A stretch of 64,000 nt of DNA, taken from Nitrospira lenta. GTDB taxonomy: Bacteria; Nitrospirota; Nitrospiria; Nitrospirales; Nitrospiraceae. Each line of letters starts with the position of its first letter. Within the stretch, counting starts at the first letter, position 1. The stretch spans positions 1 through 64,000 of the forward strand of contig CAMBDY010000001.1 in the NCBI GenBank assembly GCA_945865525.1, read 5' to 3'. The position numbers were made by a program, and so were the translations under genes. Positions 31,959-38,099 of the stretch are shown one piece after another. The notes beneath the pieces were generated by a model. It saw only the letters and a program-made list of their open reading frames with translations. It searched no databases and was not told the DNA's origin.

Positions 31959-32218
31959 AGCGGCTCTCAAACAGGTTTACTTCCGCAACCCCTTGTAAAT
32001 AGCCATCTTAAGACCGGTCAATGCAAAACCTCATGGGAAAATTGACCATCCTCAAACCCGTTACGAGACTTTTTCCCCGTGTACGCTTAGGTCGGCGCAG
32101 ATTGAAAATCATCTTGCCATTTTTCGTACGCGAGATCGTGAGATCGCCGTTGCCGGGGGGAGGGCTCGAACGGTGTAAGGGAAGAGCTGGCAAGGGCAAG
32201 TGTGACGGACTGTGAGTT

Positions 32219-32293
32219 TGGAGCGGGAAACGAGATTTGAACTCGCGACCCTCGCCTTGGCAAGGCGATGCTCTACCACTGAGCTATTCCCGC
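32219..32293 (-). tRNA. tRNA-Gly (anticodon GCC)
   Basis: 75 bases including an encoded CCA. The 7-base acceptor pairs GCGGGAA with TTCCCGC, the D arm contains AGCTCAGTGGTAGAGC, the anticodon loop is CTTGCCAAG, and the T arm contains GGTTCAAATC-type sequence (GAGTTCAAATCTC). The 260 bases between it and the preceding protein gene hold no supported gene. Confidence 0.97.
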
Positions 32294-32317
32294 TCGCTAA
32301 ACAACAGCTTTCCTCTA

Positions 32318-32346
32318 CATGTCAATGACTTAGAATCATTGACATG
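32318..32346. repeat. Perfect inverted repeat upstream of tRNA-Gly
   Basis: Two 11-base arms, CATGTCAATGA and TCATTGACATG, separated by 7 bases. It lies 25 bases upstream of the tRNA 5' end, in the position of a tRNA promoter or operator, and at the left edge of the degenerate gene next to it. It has no run of T or A, so it is not an obvious terminator. Confidence 0.8.
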
Positions 32347-32808
32347 CTCGGCAGTTATTCTGTACTCAAACTGCCAGGCTGTTATACTACCAAATGTGCG
32401 TGGAAAGCAAGGTCTGATGCTGAAACTTCGTGCCTCACGATTCACATATTCCTTCGTCCTGGATGTTCAAATTCTTTCTACTGTTTCTTCGTAAACGGAA
32501 AGTATCTGACACAAACCACAAAGACGGACAACCGCTCATTCGCGCAATCAATCGCCGAAACCGCATATGATTTATATCGCTTTACGCGTCTTATTCCAGA
32601 AGGAAAGATTAGTTAGACGTGGGACGAAACAGAGAGAAATGTGCTTACAGCGTTATCGGTAGACGCAGCAACGCGTCCCGCGAGGTTACAGACGTTACGG
32701 ATCAAACTCGGAATTCTGAGAAGATTCTTCGAAGACATTCCTCGTGCGGATCGCAAAACTAAAACGAATGAGGAATTTATTTACTGGCGAAAGAGTGGGC
32801 GTGAGTGA
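32344..32808 (+). pseudogene. Broken gene, possibly the N-terminal part of a tyrosine integrase
   Basis: One frame of 154 codons interrupted by a single in-frame TAG at 32614-32616. Before the stop it reads FVNGKYLTQTTKTDNRSFA, resembling the arm-binding start of phage-type integrases. After the stop the same frame continues TWDETERNVLTALSVDAATR and then IYWRKSGRE, like the start of a core-binding domain. No catalytic R...HxxR...Y domain follows. Base composition is clearly more AT-rich than nearby genes. Likely remnant of a mobile element inserted at tRNA-Gly; the family assignment is tentative. Confidence 0.5.
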
Positions 32809-33050
32809 GACCGGCAAGCCGTGCAATGCTTCCGCAGGTATTTGGCCGCCCGTACTCGCATTACCGCTGTTGTCGTCGCATAAAATATGCTACCAAAAGG
32901 TAACGCCATGATATAAACACTAAACCATTGATTTATTGACAATTTATCATATGATGGGAGTTTGAATGCTCATCGGTGATACGACAAGTACCCGTGACGT
33001 CTTAATGACGATAAAGATGGCAAGTGGAATGCGAGCATTTTAACATTGTT

Positions 33051-33063
33051 AATCAATGAGTTG
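33051..33063 (+). promoter_or_regulatory. Candidate IHF-binding site upstream of nxrA
   Basis: AATCAATGAGTTG matches the IHF consensus WATCAANNNNTTR at every fixed position. It lies 37 bases upstream of the sigma-54 -24 element, where a DNA bend helps an upstream activator touch the polymerase. The motif is short, so support comes from position. Confidence 0.5.
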
Positions 33064-33099
33064 GGGGCTTTCCTTAAAACTCCATGGTGCCACAGACTC

Positions 33100-33115
33100 T
33101 GGCCCGTCTATTGCT
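33100..33115 (+). promoter_or_regulatory. Sigma-54 (-24/-12) promoter of nxrAB
   Basis: TGGCCCG-TCTA-TTGCT matches TGGCACG-N4-TTGCW with one mismatch. The GG and GC dinucleotides are exactly 10 bases apart, as sigma-54 requires. The predicted transcript would start about 33126, leaving a leader of some 160 bases before nxrA. Sigma-54 promoters need an AAA+ activator; none is encoded in the window. Confidence 0.7.
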
Positions 33116-33286
33116 TATATAGAGGCTCATGATGCTAGGAATTCACGATAAAATGATATGGATGGCCTGTTCGGGGCTCTTACTTTTGGGCAATTTTGTC
33201 AAGAAAGGGGGGTCTGAAGTTTTCGCTGTGCGTCAGTGAAGTCGCGTGGGCTTATTGAAGCCCTCAACTCTTAGGAGGTGTCACCA

Positions 33287-36200
33287 ATGTTTTTGTCACG
33301 TAGGCAGTTCTTAAAAGTCTCCGTGGGAACCGTCGCCGCCGTCGCGGTCGCCGACAAAGTCCTCGCGTTGACCGCGCTGCAGCCGGTCATCGAAGTGGGC
33401 AATCCCTTGGGAGATTATCCGGATCGGTCGTGGGAGCGTGTCTATCACGATCAGTATCGGTACGATTCATCGTTTACCTGGGTTTGTTCGCCGAACGACA
33501 CGCACGCCTGCCGCATCCGGGCCTTCGTCCGGAACGGTGTGGTCATGCGGGTTGAGCAGAACTACGACCACCAGACGTACGAAGATCTCTACGGCAACCG
33601 CGGAACGTTCGCGCACAATCCGCGCATGTGCTTGAAGGGATTTACCTTCCATCGTCGCGTCTATGGCCCCTATCGCTTGAAGGGCCCCTTGATGCGGAAG
33701 GGTTGGAAGGAATGGATGGATGCCGGTTCGCCGGAGCTGACGCCAGAAACGAAGCGGAAGTACAAGTTCGATAGCCGCTTCTTGGACGACATGCTGCGTG
33801 TGTCTTGGGATACGGCCTTCACCTATGCCGCCAAGGCGATGATCATCATTGCCACGCGGTACAGCGGTGAAGCTGGTGCCCGTCGCCTTCGCGAGCAGGG
33901 TTATGCGCCGGAAATGATCGAAATGATGAAGGGGGCGGGAACGCGTACCTTCAAGCATCGCGCTGGTATGCCGGTCCTCGGTATCATCGGCAAGATGGGC
34001 AACACCAGAATGAACGGCGGCGTTAACGCGTTGCTGGACACCTGGATTCGCAAAGTGGACCCAACGCAGGCTCAAGGCGGCCGGTATTGGTCGAACTACA
34101 CCTGGCACGGCGACCAGAACCCCGCCCACCCCTGGTGGAGCGGCGCGCAGGGGTCTGACATCGACCTCTCCGACATGCGCTTCTCCAAGCTGAACACCAG
34201 CTGGGGTAAGAACTTCGTCGAGAACAAGATGCCGGAAGCGCACTGGAAGTTGGAATGTATCGAGCGGGGCGCCCGGGTCGTGGTCATCACGCCTGAGTAC
34301 AACCCCACAGCCTATCGCGCCGACTACTGGATGCCGTTACGGCCCGCGGCGGACGGCGCCATTTTCTTAGGCGCCATGAAGATCATCGTCGATGAGAACA
34401 TGCACGACGTGGACTTCTTGAAGGGGTATACCGATTCGCCGATGCTCGTCCGTACGGATACCCTGCAGTTCCTGGATCCGCGCGAGGTTGTGGCGGGGTA
34501 TGAGTTCCCCGACTTCTCGAAGAGCTACTCGGGCCGCGTGCAGTCCTTGAAGCCGGATCAGGTGGCTCGGCTCGGTGGCATGATGGTCTGGGACTTGAAC
34601 AAGAAGGCCGCCGTGCCGCTCCATCGTGAGCAGGTTGGCTGGCACTATCAGAACAGCGGCATTGATGCAGCCCTCACCGGGACCTACCGGGTAAAGTTGC
34701 TCAATGGCCGTGAAGTCGATGCGATGCCGGTCTGGCAGATGTACTTGGTGCACTTCCAGGATTACGATCTGGACACCTGTCATCAGATTTGCCGAACGCC
34801 AAAGGACCTCTTGGTCCGTTGGGCGCGTGACTCAGGTTCGATCAAGCCCGCCGCCATCCATAACGGCGAAGGCACGAACCACTATTTCCATCAGACCATT
34901 AATGCCCGCGGTGCGGCGATGGTGCTCATCGTCACCGGCAACGTCGGGAAGTTCGGCACCGGGCAGCATACCTGGGCCGGAAATTACAAGGCGGGTACCT
35001 GGACGTCGACGCCCTGGTCTGGTGCTGGTATTGCCGTGCATACGGGTGAGGATCCATTCAACATCAACTTGGATCCGAACGCGCATGGCAAGGAAATCAA
35101 GGTCAAGGGCTATTACTACGGCGAGGAAGTCGGGTATTGGAACCACGGCGACACCGCCTTGATCGTCAATACGCCGAAGTACGGGCGGAAGGTGTTCACG
35201 GGCAAGACGCACATGCCGACGCCGAGCAAGTTCCGCTGGGTGGTCAACGTGAACGTGCTCAACAACGCCAAGCACCACTATGACATGGTGCGCAACGTCG
35301 ATCCGAACATCGAGACCCTGATCACTCAGGACATCGAGATGACCTCGGACGTGAACCACAACGATATCGCCTTCGCGGCGAATTCGTGGATGGAGTTCAC
35401 CTATCCAGAAATGACTGTCACGGTCTCCAATCCGTGGGTGCAGATCTGGAAGGGCGGCATCCGGCCCTTGTACGACACCCGGAACGACCTCGATTCGTTC
35501 GCCGGTGTGGCGGCCAAGTTGTCGGACATGACCGGTGACAAGCGTATGCGCGATTACTTCAAGTTCGTCTACGAAAACCGCGTGGACGTCTATGCGCAGC
35601 GCATGCTCGATGCCTCCAGCACCTTCTACGGCTACAGCGCAGACGTCATGCTGAAGTCGGAAAAAGGCTGGATGGTCATGGTGCGGACCTATCCGCGGAC
35701 CCCATTCTGGGAAGAGACCAACGAGTCAAAGCCCATGTGGACGCGGACTGGTCGGTACGAAAACTACCGAACCGAGCCCGAGGCGATCGAATACGGCGAA
35801 AACTTCATCTCGCACCGCGAGGGCACGGAAGCGACGCCGTATCTGCCGAACGCCATCATGTCGAGCAACCCGTACGTCCGTCCGGACGACTACGGCATTC
35901 CGATCACGGCGCAGCACCATGACGACAAGACGGTGCGCAATATCAAGCTGCCGTGGCAGGAAATCAAGCGGCACGCCAACCCGTTGTGGGAGAAGGGGTA
36001 CCAGTTCTACTGCGTCACTCCGAAGACCCGGCATCGGGTGCACAGCCAATGGTCGGTGAACGACTGGGTGCAGATTTACGAGTCGAACTTCGGCGATCCG
36101 TACCGCATGGACAAGCGGACGCCTGGTGTCGGCGAACACCAGTTGCACATCAATCCGCAAGCGGCGAAAGACCGCGGTATCAACGACGGCGACTACGTCT

Positions 36201-36724
36201 ACGTAGACGGCAACCCGGTGGACCGGCCTTATCGTGGCTGGAAGCCTTCGGATCCGTACTATAAGGTGGCGCGCCTCATGATCCGCGCGAAGTACAATCC
36301 GGCCTATCCGTACCACGTGACGATGGCGAAGCACGCCCCGTACGTAGCCACGGCGAAGTCGGTCAAAGGCCATGAGACGCGCCCAGACGGACGCGCCATC
36401 GCGGTGGACACCGGCTATCAATCGAACTTCCGGTACGGGGCCCAACAGTCCTTTACTAGAAACTGGTTGATGCCGATGCACCAGACGGACTCATTGCCGG
36501 GCAAGCATGCCGTGGCCTGGAAGTTCAAGTGGGGCTATCAGGTCGACCACCATGCGATCAACACGGTGCCGAAGGAATGTCTCATCCGCATCACCAAGGC
36601 GGAAGACGGCGGCATCGGCGCGAGGGGTCCATGGGAGCCGGTCCGGACCGGATTTACCCCGGGCCAAGAGAACGAGTTCATGATCAAGTGGCTCAAAGGT
36701 GAACACATCAAGATCAAGGTGTAA
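33287..36724 (+). CDS. nxrA: Nitrite oxidoreductase alpha subunit NxrA
   Basis: Catalytic subunit that oxidises nitrite to nitrate at a bis-MGD molybdenum centre, the energy source of the cell. 1145 residues from ATG 33287 (AGGAGG ten bases upstream). The N-terminus has a perfect twin-arginine motif SRRQFLK followed by a hydrophobic stretch and LALTAL, so it is exported folded to the periplasm. Likely ligands of the first 4Fe-4S cluster are C67, D71, C75 and C115. The region SNYTWHGDQNPAHPWW is a candidate for the Asp molybdenum ligand of type II DMSO-reductase enzymes. A GTG at 33278 is a less likely start. nxrB follows after 85 bases. Confidence 0.98.
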   Translation: MFLSRRQFLKVSVGTVAAVAVADKVLALTALQPVIEVGNPLGDYPDRSWERVYHDQYRYDSSFTWVCSPNDTHACRIRAFVRNGVVMRVEQNYDHQTYEDLYGNRGTFAHNPRMCLKGFTFHRRVYGPYRLKGPLMRKGWKEWMDAGSPELTPETKRKYKFDSRFLDDMLRVSWDTAFTYAAKAMIIIATRYSGEAGARRLREQGYAPEMIEMMKGAGTRTFKHRAGMPVLGIIGKMGNTRMNGGVNALLDTWIRKVDPTQAQGGRYWSNYTWHGDQNPAHPWWSGAQGSDIDLSDMRFSKLNTSWGKNFVENKMPEAHWKLECIERGARVVVITPEYNPTAYRADYWMPLRPAADGAIFLGAMKIIVDENMHDVDFLKGYTDSPMLVRTDTLQFLDPREVVAGYEFPDFSKSYSGRVQSLKPDQVARLGGMMVWDLNKKAAVPLHREQVGWHYQNSGIDAALTGTYRVKLLNGREVDAMPVWQMYLVHFQDYDLDTCHQICRTPKDLLVRWARDSGSIKPAAIHNGEGTNHYFHQTINARGAAMVLIVTGNVGKFGTGQHTWAGNYKAGTWTSTPWSGAGIAVHTGEDPFNINLDPNAHGKEIKVKGYYYGEEVGYWNHGDTALIVNTPKYGRKVFTGKTHMPTPSKFRWVVNVNVLNNAKHHYDMVRNVDPNIETLITQDIEMTSDVNHNDIAFAANSWMEFTYPEMTVTVSNPWVQIWKGGIRPLYDTRNDLDSFAGVAAKLSDMTGDKRMRDYFKFVYENRVDVYAQRMLDASSTFYGYSADVMLKSEKGWMVMVRTYPRTPFWEETNESKPMWTRTGRYENYRTEPEAIEYGENFISHREGTEATPYLPNAIMSSNPYVRPDDYGIPITAQHHDDKTVRNIKLPWQEIKRHANPLWEKGYQFYCVTPKTRHRVHSQWSVNDWVQIYESNFGDPYRMDKRTPGVGEHQLHINPQAAKDRGINDGDYVYVDGNPVDRPYRGWKPSDPYYKVARLMIRAKYNPAYPYHVTMAKHAPYVATAKSVKGHETRPDGRAIAVDTGYQSNFRYGAQQSFTRNWLMPMHQTDSLPGKHAVAWKFKWGYQVDHHAINTVPKECLIRITKAEDGGIGARGPWEPVRTGFTPGQENEFMIKWLKGEHIKIKV

Positions 36725-36809: not shown

Positions 36810-38099
36810 ATGCCTGAAGTGTATAACTGGCAGCTGGGACGGAAGATGCTGTATCCCTACGAGGAACGGCATCCGAAGTGGCAGTTTGCCTTTGTGTTCA
36901 ACATTAACCGGTGCTTGGCTTGCCAGACCTGTTCGATGGCAGACAAGTCCACCTGGCTCTTCTCGAAGGGGCAGGAATACATGTGGTGGAACAACGTGGA
37001 AACCAAGCCCTACGGGGGGTACCCACAGTTCTACGACGTGAAGATCACCCAGCTCATCGAGCAGGTGAATCCGGGCGGCCAGGTGTGGAACGTCCGTGTG
37101 GGACGGAAGCATCATGCGCCGTACGGCGTGTTCGAAGGTATGACCATTTTCGACGCAGGCGCCAAAGTGGGCCAGGCGGCGATCGGGTACATTCCGACGG
37201 ACCAAGAGTGGCGGTTCGTGAACATCTATGAGGATACGGCGACCTCGATGCGTGCCCTCGTGGAAGGTACCGACAAGACCGGATTCTCACGGGACGAACC
37301 GTGGAAGATGACGGGTAGCAGTCTGCCGGAGCATGAAACGTTCTTTTTCTATCTCCAGCGGATTTGCAACCACTGCACGTACCCAGGCTGCTTGGCAGCC
37401 TGCCCGCGGAAGGCGATCTACAAGAGACCCGAAGACGGGATCGTGTTGATTGACCAGAACCGGTGCCGCGGGTACAAGAAGTGCGTGGAGCAGTGCCCGT
37501 ATAAGAAGCCGATGTATCGTGGGACCACACGCGTGTCTGAAAAGTGCATCGCGTGTTATCCACGTATCGAAGGAAAAGACCCGTTGACGGGTGGTGAGCC
37601 GATGGAAACGCGGTGTATGGCCGCCTGCGTCGGTAAGATCCGGATGCAGAGCCTGATGCGCATCGGCGAAGACGGCCTGTGGGCGGAAGACCGGTGGCAC
37701 CCGCTCTACTACGCGATCCGCGTGGAGCAGGTGGCGCTCCCATTGTATCCACAGTGGGGCACCGAGCCCAACGGCTTCTACATCCCACCGCGGCACAGCC
37801 CTCGTGGTTATGCGCGGCAGATGTTTGGCCCAGGCGTCGACAATGCCATCGAGAAGTATCTCGTGCCCAGCCGTGAGCTGTTAGCGGTCCTCCAGTTGTG
37901 GAGAGCCAGCCAGCAGATCATCTTCCGGTACGATGTCATTCCTGGTCCGAAAGTGTTCGAGACCCAGATTCACGGGAAGCGTTTCGAGATGTACAACGAT
38001 ACCGTGTTGGGCTTCAACAAGTCGGGCAAGGAAGTGGCGCGTATTCAGGTCGAAGAGCCGATCTACATTCGGCCGGCCGAGCGTGTAACCTGGCTGTAA
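36810..38099 (+). CDS. nxrB: Nitrite oxidoreductase beta subunit NxrB
   Basis: Electron-transfer subunit with four Fe-S clusters, passing electrons from NxrA towards the respiratory chain. 429 residues. Cysteine groups are RCLACQTC (residues 34-41), CNHCTYPGCLAACP (near 186), CRGYKKCVEQCP (near 219), CIAC (near 246) and CMAAC (near 269), consistent with three 4Fe-4S and one 3Fe-4S cluster. No signal peptide of its own, so it is expected to leave the cytoplasm bound to Tat-exported NxrA. The start is ATG 36810 with AAGGAGG upstream. The membrane or cytochrome subunit NxrC is not encoded next to it. Confidence 0.98.
   Translation: MPEVYNWQLGRKMLYPYEERHPKWQFAFVFNINRCLACQTCSMADKSTWLFSKGQEYMWWNNVETKPYGGYPQFYDVKITQLIEQVNPGGQVWNVRVGRKHHAPYGVFEGMTIFDAGAKVGQAAIGYIPTDQEWRFVNIYEDTATSMRALVEGTDKTGFSRDEPWKMTGSSLPEHETFFFYLQRICNHCTYPGCLAACPRKAIYKRPEDGIVLIDQNRCRGYKKCVEQCPYKKPMYRGTTRVSEKCIACYPRIEGKDPLTGGEPMETRCMAACVGKIRMQSLMRIGEDGLWAEDRWHPLYYAIRVEQVALPLYPQWGTEPNGFYIPPRHSPRGYARQMFGPGVDNAIEKYLVPSRELLAVLQLWRASQQIIFRYDVIPGPKVFETQIHGKRFEMYNDTVLGFNKSGKEVARIQVEEPIYIRPAERVTWL

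Follow-up and report, generated by a model that had tools for sequence, protein, structure and literature searches.

Nearly all mobile elements that target tRNA genes use the part of the gene from the anticodon to the 3′ end, so that the tRNA promoter is left untouched. In the Islander collection, 3760 of 3919 islands are bounded by 3′ fragments of the tRNA gene and 159 by 5′ fragments, and crossovers are assigned to three subsites, namely, the anticodon loop, the T loop, and the T/acceptor junction (PMC4383910). The same three subsites are given in a review of archaeal recombinases, which treats the pTN3-like integrases as the archaeal exception that uses the 5′ half of the gene (PMC8371274); in these Thermococcus elements, the 41-bp shared core takes in the anticodon, and integration parts the tRNA from its promoter (PMC5495485). 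With regard to orientation, divergent tRNA-integrase pairs form one of two classes which together account for less than 8% of tRNA-adjacent integrases (PMC2951348).

The locus described here lies in a 64-kb window (the whole stretch of DNA analyzed) of a Nitrospira draft genome of 1.80 Mb in 39 contigs, estimated to be 99.7% complete; the median genome size of streamlined Great Lakes Nitrospira is 1.83 Mb (PMC9239080). We read this locus, with a probability of about 0.88, as the decayed attL of an element that integrated at the 5′ end of a tRNA gene, exchanged the upstream DNA of that gene, promoter included, for its own int leader, and was later largely removed by deletion, the adjacent nxrAB genes being ancestral bystanders. 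The relevant features are as follows.

32219..32293, minus strand: tRNA-Gly(GCC), intact, the one tRNA on which ARAGORN and Rfam agree
32277..32293, minus strand: tRNA nucleotides 1 to 17, the predicted attachment core by analogy with the direct repeat of four intact relatives; the second copy is gone
32294..32416, no strand: element-derived leader, from the tRNA 5′ end to the integrase start, standing in place of the native tRNA promoter region and unlike the native flanks of relatives (family motif, P = 0.0005)
32318-32328 and 32336-32346, no strand: 11-bp perfect inverted repeat with a 7-nt spacer, likely the integrase-binding region of attL
32322..32334, plus strand: copy of the family's leader motif, TCAATGACTTAGA, lying inside the inverted repeat at 28 nt from the tRNA 5′ end
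32417..32795, plus strand: tyrosine integrase pseudogene, codons ~1 to 132 of ~394, assigned by tblastn to intact relatives; the catalytic domain is deleted
32795..32796, no strand: deletion junction between the last integrase sequence and native DNA, which is picked up again at native position -35 relative to the tRNA
32812..32817, minus strand: -35 hexamer of the native tRNA-Gly promoter in decayed form, reading TTGCCG against TTGACA in relatives
32889..32904, no strand: conserved dyad GCTACC-N4-GGTAAC, a native part of the nxr control region that lies outside the element
33287..36724, plus strand: nxrA, in its ancestral place as judged from the conserved order in relatives
36810..38099, plus strand: nxrB, in its ancestral place on the same grounds

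The tRNA-Gly(GCC) and the 11-base perfect inverted repeat which the initial annotation had reported upstream of nxrA were both present, and the region was AT rich as claimed, with a GC content of 0.44 for 32294-32796 versus 0.57 for the window. As the tRNA gene occupies the minus strand, the integrase-like frame between it and nxrA sits on its 5′ (promoter) side. A blastn search of the genome against itself identified this copy as the sole GCC-anticodon tRNA-Gly of the 1.8-Mb assembly, the other tRNA-Gly genes having CCC and TCC anticodons, although, in a draft of 39 contigs, there remains a slight chance that another tRNA-Gly(GCC) was missed or that the locus was misassembled. Only a handful of comparable inverted repeats occur in the window, and the one at 32318..32346, whose exact sequence occurs once in the genome, overlaps the conserved leader motif of the integrase family described below. 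A role for this repeat as a dif/lox-like recombination core was considered and rejected on account of that single genomic occurrence and of the location of the relatives' true cores inside the tRNA; integrase binding within the leader is the likelier role.

The read-through frame at 32344-32808, which is interrupted by one internal TAG (32614-32616) and had been described as resembling the start of a tyrosine integrase, is a broken tyrosine integrase gene. Searches with tblastn matched it to the intact 394-amino-acid (aa) integrase encoded on contig C8 of the same genome (45% identity over 119 aa, E = 7e-31) and to an integrase from another Nitrospiraceae genus (genome G429; 53% over 120 aa, E = 7.6e-39). 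The assignment derives from these matches and not from Pfam, a scan of the frame alone having returned no integrase match but only a chance match to YoaP (E = 0.24); the protein search which the initial annotation had proposed was thus productive against intact relatives and unproductive against Pfam. The start assumed at 32344 had to be revised, as homology to intact integrases places the true start at ATG 32417 (MLKLR..., compare MLKLRDG in integrase L116), beyond which a single frameshift occurs near 32432-32440 (~32435). Homology stops at a conserved WRK (32795). The window copy retains the N-terminal and core-binding part only, and the catalytic residues are absent, belonging to the part that was deleted.

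The family to which this remnant belongs was searched for in 396 genomes of the phylum and in 175 Nitrospiraceae genomes. Close relatives were rare, amounting to nine members in the 175 Nitrospiraceae genomes: four intact copies (contig C8 of the window genome, G429, G386, and G281), the other five being N-terminal fragments (the window, G290, where the gene is cut by a contig end, G272, G345, and G458). All nine adjoin a divergent tRNA gene whose 5′ end faces the integrase, about 90 to 135 bp separating the tRNA 5′ end from the integrase start, a geometry expected by chance for ~0.26% of random genes. The targets are tRNA-Arg(TCG) in five cases, tRNA-Ala(CGC) in two, and tRNA-Lys(TTT) and tRNA-Gly(GCC) in one each; the tRNA-Arg cases may partly represent one inherited insertion, and the independent events, of which there are at least five, are therefore fewer than the loci.

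In the intact members, PF00589 was detected in four of four and PF13102 in three of four, these matches being weak and, for the member shown in full, below Pfam's own cutoff. An AlphaFold model of a family integrase (mean pLDDT of 71) was matched by Foldseek to XerA, lambda Int, XerH, and Tn1549 Int, with values of 4e-8 to 8e-8 for XerA and lambda Int. By these domain and fold matches, the proteins belong to the tyrosine recombinases (phage integrases). Residues R235, K265, R334, and Y366/Y369 are invariant in the four intact integrases when aligned and inspected by eye, the histidine of the HxxR motif reading K331 in all four. A PDB sequence search with the family profile returned no match, and no members were found in phages or in IMG/VR; a plasmid search yielded only matches of 27 to 46% identity, some over short stretches only, and a search of genome contigs yielded one C-terminal match in Bradyrhizobium, with no tRNA within 5 kb. 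A distant integrase (L101, genome G015, contig C167), 26 to 30% identical to the family, lies beside tRNA-Arg(CCT) and faces its 5′ end, with a resolvase-like gene in between; from this case, a broader integrase clade may share the habit of residing at tRNA 5′ ends.

The intact elements permitted the attachment site to be located. Two features of the window genome outside the window are pertinent.

Contig C8, 43433-44614: intact family integrase, 394 aa
G000 contig C8, 43333-49461 (L098/L097): intact 6.1-kb element in tRNA-Ala(CGC)

In each of the four intact elements, which measure 6.1 kb (C8), 16.1 kb (G429), 7.2 kb (G386), and 15.9 kb (G281), nucleotides 1 to 16 or 17 of the tRNA, together with 0 to 5 nt upstream, are repeated directly at the far end. 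The resulting core is 16 to 22 bp long, and the integrase gene is left intact; the tRNA is restored at one end, and a displaced tRNA fragment lies at the other. When the flank of tRNA-Ala(CGC) on contig C8 was joined to the sequence past the far repeat, the resulting 470-bp empty site aligned straight across the junction in at least 13 members of the genus at 72 to 86% identity, with 86% over the full length in G016. From the 5′ repeats of the four elements and the uninterrupted empty site, it follows that integrases of this family act at the 5′ terminus of the tRNA, the native promoter being pushed to the far side of the element.

The elements have a GC content of 0.44 to 0.48, versus 0.52 to 0.55 in their surroundings. 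The integrase gene is adjacent to a serine resolvase gene in four of four and shares its direction in three. Cargo across the elements includes a Vsr endonuclease, a cytosine methylase, and NeuB. The C8 element itself encodes the integrase, a resolvase, NeuB-like and formyltransferase-like proteins, and an HLHF-motif protein without a Pfam match. Proteins with an HxH motif, possibly HUH-type replication proteins as judged by eye, are encoded in C8, G386, and G281; the two tested had no Pfam match.

The duplicated 5′ terminus bears on the reading that the window locus is an ordinary 3′-end tRNA island, with the element formerly located beyond the opposite end of the tRNA, which would accord with the 3′-end duplication seen in most tRNA islands (3760/3919 in Islander; PMC4383910). 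This is a most improbable account, however, in that the integrase lies at the 5′ side of the tRNA in all members, the four elements and the empty site define a repeat of tRNA nucleotides 1 to 16 or 17, and no 3′ duplication was found near the window tRNA. Contig C1 held no second copy of either the tRNA-Gly 3′ end or its 5′ 17 nt. The second copy of the tRNA 3′ end anticipated downstream by the initial annotation does not exist because elements of this family duplicate the tRNA 5′ end instead, while its broader suggestion that the locus marks the edge of an old mobile element agrees with the intact relatives, from which the remnant can be recognized as one end of a tRNA-targeting element. By analogy with these relatives, the 5′ end of the tRNA would likewise have been the point of integration in the window. 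In G024 (L087), 54 nt of the tRNA-Gly 3′ end are duplicated; this was considered as an att site and dismissed as a scaffold-gap artifact, as it flanks a run of N.

Compared with described systems, the elements are tRNA-targeted islands of a known kind, but with an attachment core at nucleotides 1 to 16 or 17, for which no description was found in the literature searched. They resemble the 5′-fragment islands of Islander in that a tyrosine integrase lies beside the restored tRNA and a displaced fragment at the other end (PMC4383910). Unlike the Islander subsites, their core comprises nucleotides 1 to 16 or 17 only, that is, the 5′ strand of the acceptor stem and the start of the D arm, and thus falls outside the three standard tRNA subsites. 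As in the pTN3-like elements, attB lies in the 5′ half of the tRNA, and the tRNA is cut off from its original promoter (PMC5495485, PMC8371274); in contrast, the pTN3-like core of 41 bp is accompanied by disruption of int, whereas the core here is 16 to 22 bp and int is intact. A core of ~41 bp reaching the anticodon, with a disrupted int, was accordingly seen in none of the intact relatives, and the present family occurs in bacterial hosts and at several tRNA isotypes. The overlap of the int promoter region with attL beside the tRNA is shared with integrases of the KplE1/HK620 type, in which, however, tRNA and int follow one another in the same direction, the two being divergent here (PMC2951348). 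Tycheposons and the islands of streamlined plankton are likewise bounded by tRNAs, carry tyrosine recombinases, and occur in aquatic bacteria, but they differ in cargo and size, the likeness being one of description (PMC10872708). For the Methylopumilus islands, a repeat assigned to the final 20 bp of tRNA-Lys(ctt) is listed, ACCAGCTGAGCTAATCCCCC (PMC10872708); this is the reverse complement of an apparent tRNA 5′ end, and a similar 5′-end element may thus exist in other streamlined plankton.

In the window, the segment upstream of the tRNA bears the marks of the family. A 13-nt leader motif built from six other leaders was recovered here as TCAATGACTTAGA (P = 0.0005 against shuffled sequences), whereas the native flanks of the four relatives examined lack it. 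When the window was aligned locally to G001, G011, and G016, the match started in each case at 32796, corresponding to a native offset of 35. In relatives, tRNA-Gly is preceded by a promoter, TTGACA-N17-TAGAAT, located 27 nt before the tRNA, with a score of 14.3 that exceeded those of all shuffles; in the window, the native -10 box TAGAAT is deleted.

These features suggest the following course of events. The element would have integrated within the first ~16 nt of tRNA-Gly, leaving the tRNA whole, and the upstream DNA of the tRNA, promoter included, would have been replaced by the int leader of the element, with the native promoter and a copy of the tRNA 5′ end moved to the far end of the element, as is seen in the four intact relatives. 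The integrase gene would then have decayed, and a single deletion would have taken most of int and everything beyond it in the element, up to and including the far attachment site and the native -10 box, so that int codon ~132 came to abut native position -35; the junction is observed, and the order of events is the one that we consider probable. The old -35 hexamer would have decayed after the deletion. Presumably, the sole tRNA-Gly(GCC) is now transcribed from an element-derived promoter within the retained leader and int 5′ segment: with the native promoter destroyed and the sole tRNA-Gly(GCC) necessarily transcribed, the retained leader is the obvious candidate.

The segment could instead be a neutral scar without functional effect, the tRNA being transcribed by read-through from elsewhere and not from the leader. 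Consistent with this, the leader contains no statistically supported promoter, the best sigma70 candidate on the tRNA strand, TTGCTT-N18-TATAAC, scoring 6.9 (P = 0.52), no better than shuffled sequences. Nevertheless, we regard this alternative as rather unlikely, given that the native promoter is gone and tRNA-Gly(GCC) is single, that no nearby upstream gene on the tRNA strand reads toward the tRNA, and that nxrA diverges from it. In the decayed copies of G272 and G345, the leader and the 5′ end of int are likewise retained, which fits promoter function but also simple deletion from the 3′ side.

A misassembly of the metagenomic genome, by which an integrase fragment became attached here, is very unlikely. 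In its favor, the draft comprises 39 contigs and the remnant was seen only once in the species; against it, the remnant agrees with an independent family in its geometry, leader motif, spacing, and sharp junction, and similar N-terminal scars are present in G272, G345, and G458.

The order of the neighboring genes was compared by searching 32 genomes of the genus for nxrA and the 450-aa gene upstream. In ten genomes, the order ChaN, 450-aa gene, tRNA-Gly (reverse), nxrA, and nxrB was found on one contig, and an eleventh carries the tRNA-Gly-nxrA-nxrB part alone; an integrase remnant between tRNA-Gly and nxrA was detected in none of these 11 relatives. The tRNA-to-nxrA spacer measures 993 bp here versus 525 to 580 bp in most relatives. 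Extra DNA of ~330 bp lies between tRNA-Gly and the nxr dyad in G005 and G007 (L086, L088); it was examined as a possible integrase remnant and rejected, the sequence not being integrase-like, and DNA has thus entered the spacer on more than one occasion. Beyond the opposite end of the tRNA, a ~4.6-kb stretch present in most relatives between the 450-aa gene and the tRNA, with MoxR-, DUF58-, and transglutaminase-like genes (named by eye), is missing from the window (31959-32218) and from G016, the other small genome; a search of the window genome for MoxR, run without a positive control, found no match. In G011, the same interval instead holds some 22 kb of DNA, a large part of which encodes sensor kinases.

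Several blocks are conserved upstream of nxrA in the window, most relatives, and a second nxr copy of the window genome: the dyad, GATAC...TACYCA, and a hairpin before the ribosome-binding site. In the control region of the window (32889-33290), the dyad lies ~400 nt and GATACNNYAANTACYCA ~310 nt before nxrA, a GGGCTT..AAGCCC hairpin lies at -40, and an ATATTGC block is found near -205 in most relatives. These blocks are a candidate regulator site for the genes of nitrite oxidation. The second copy (G000 contig C14, 640-4074; L089) comprises nxrA, whose protein is 94% identical, and nxrB; the 639 bp available upstream contain neither tRNA-Gly nor an integrase remnant.

The initial annotation had suggested that the element brought in or duplicated nxrAB or the nxr control region, for which the physical proximity and the two nxr copies of the genome, 94% identical, might be adduced. 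This is exceedingly improbable. The synteny comparison which it had proposed showed the tRNA-Gly-nxrA-nxrB order to be kept in 11 genomes without the integrase, the upstream control blocks being shared by most relatives and the ChaN and 450-aa gene flanks being conserved as well; an arrangement in which nxrAB occurs only with the element and at variable locations was not encountered in these relatives. Moreover, the window nxrA is 98% identical to the syntenic copies of relatives, and the C14 copy has no integrase in its available upstream flank. From the conserved order and the control blocks of relatives without integrase, it follows that the nxr locus is ancestral and that the insertion is private to the window species among the genomes compared.

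The window case thus corrects the idea that nxrAB moved with the element, and the family widens the known set of tRNA attachment sites. With attachment at the 5′ terminus, expression of the tRNA necessarily passes to the element, which would thereby have a direct hold on an essential gene, and this hold may explain why the 5′ end of the element persists as a scar. Somewhat short of even odds, in our estimation, is the broader proposal that a previously undescribed family of bacterial integrative elements has its attachment site in the first ~16 nt of tRNA genes and provides the tRNA with a new promoter, its scars being domesticated in that the leader, once the element has decayed, could not be lost where an essential single-copy tRNA depends on it. 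If this proposal is true, promoter-bearing 5′ fragments of integrase genes would persist as domesticated scars, in the present case for the sole tRNA-Gly(GCC) of the genome.
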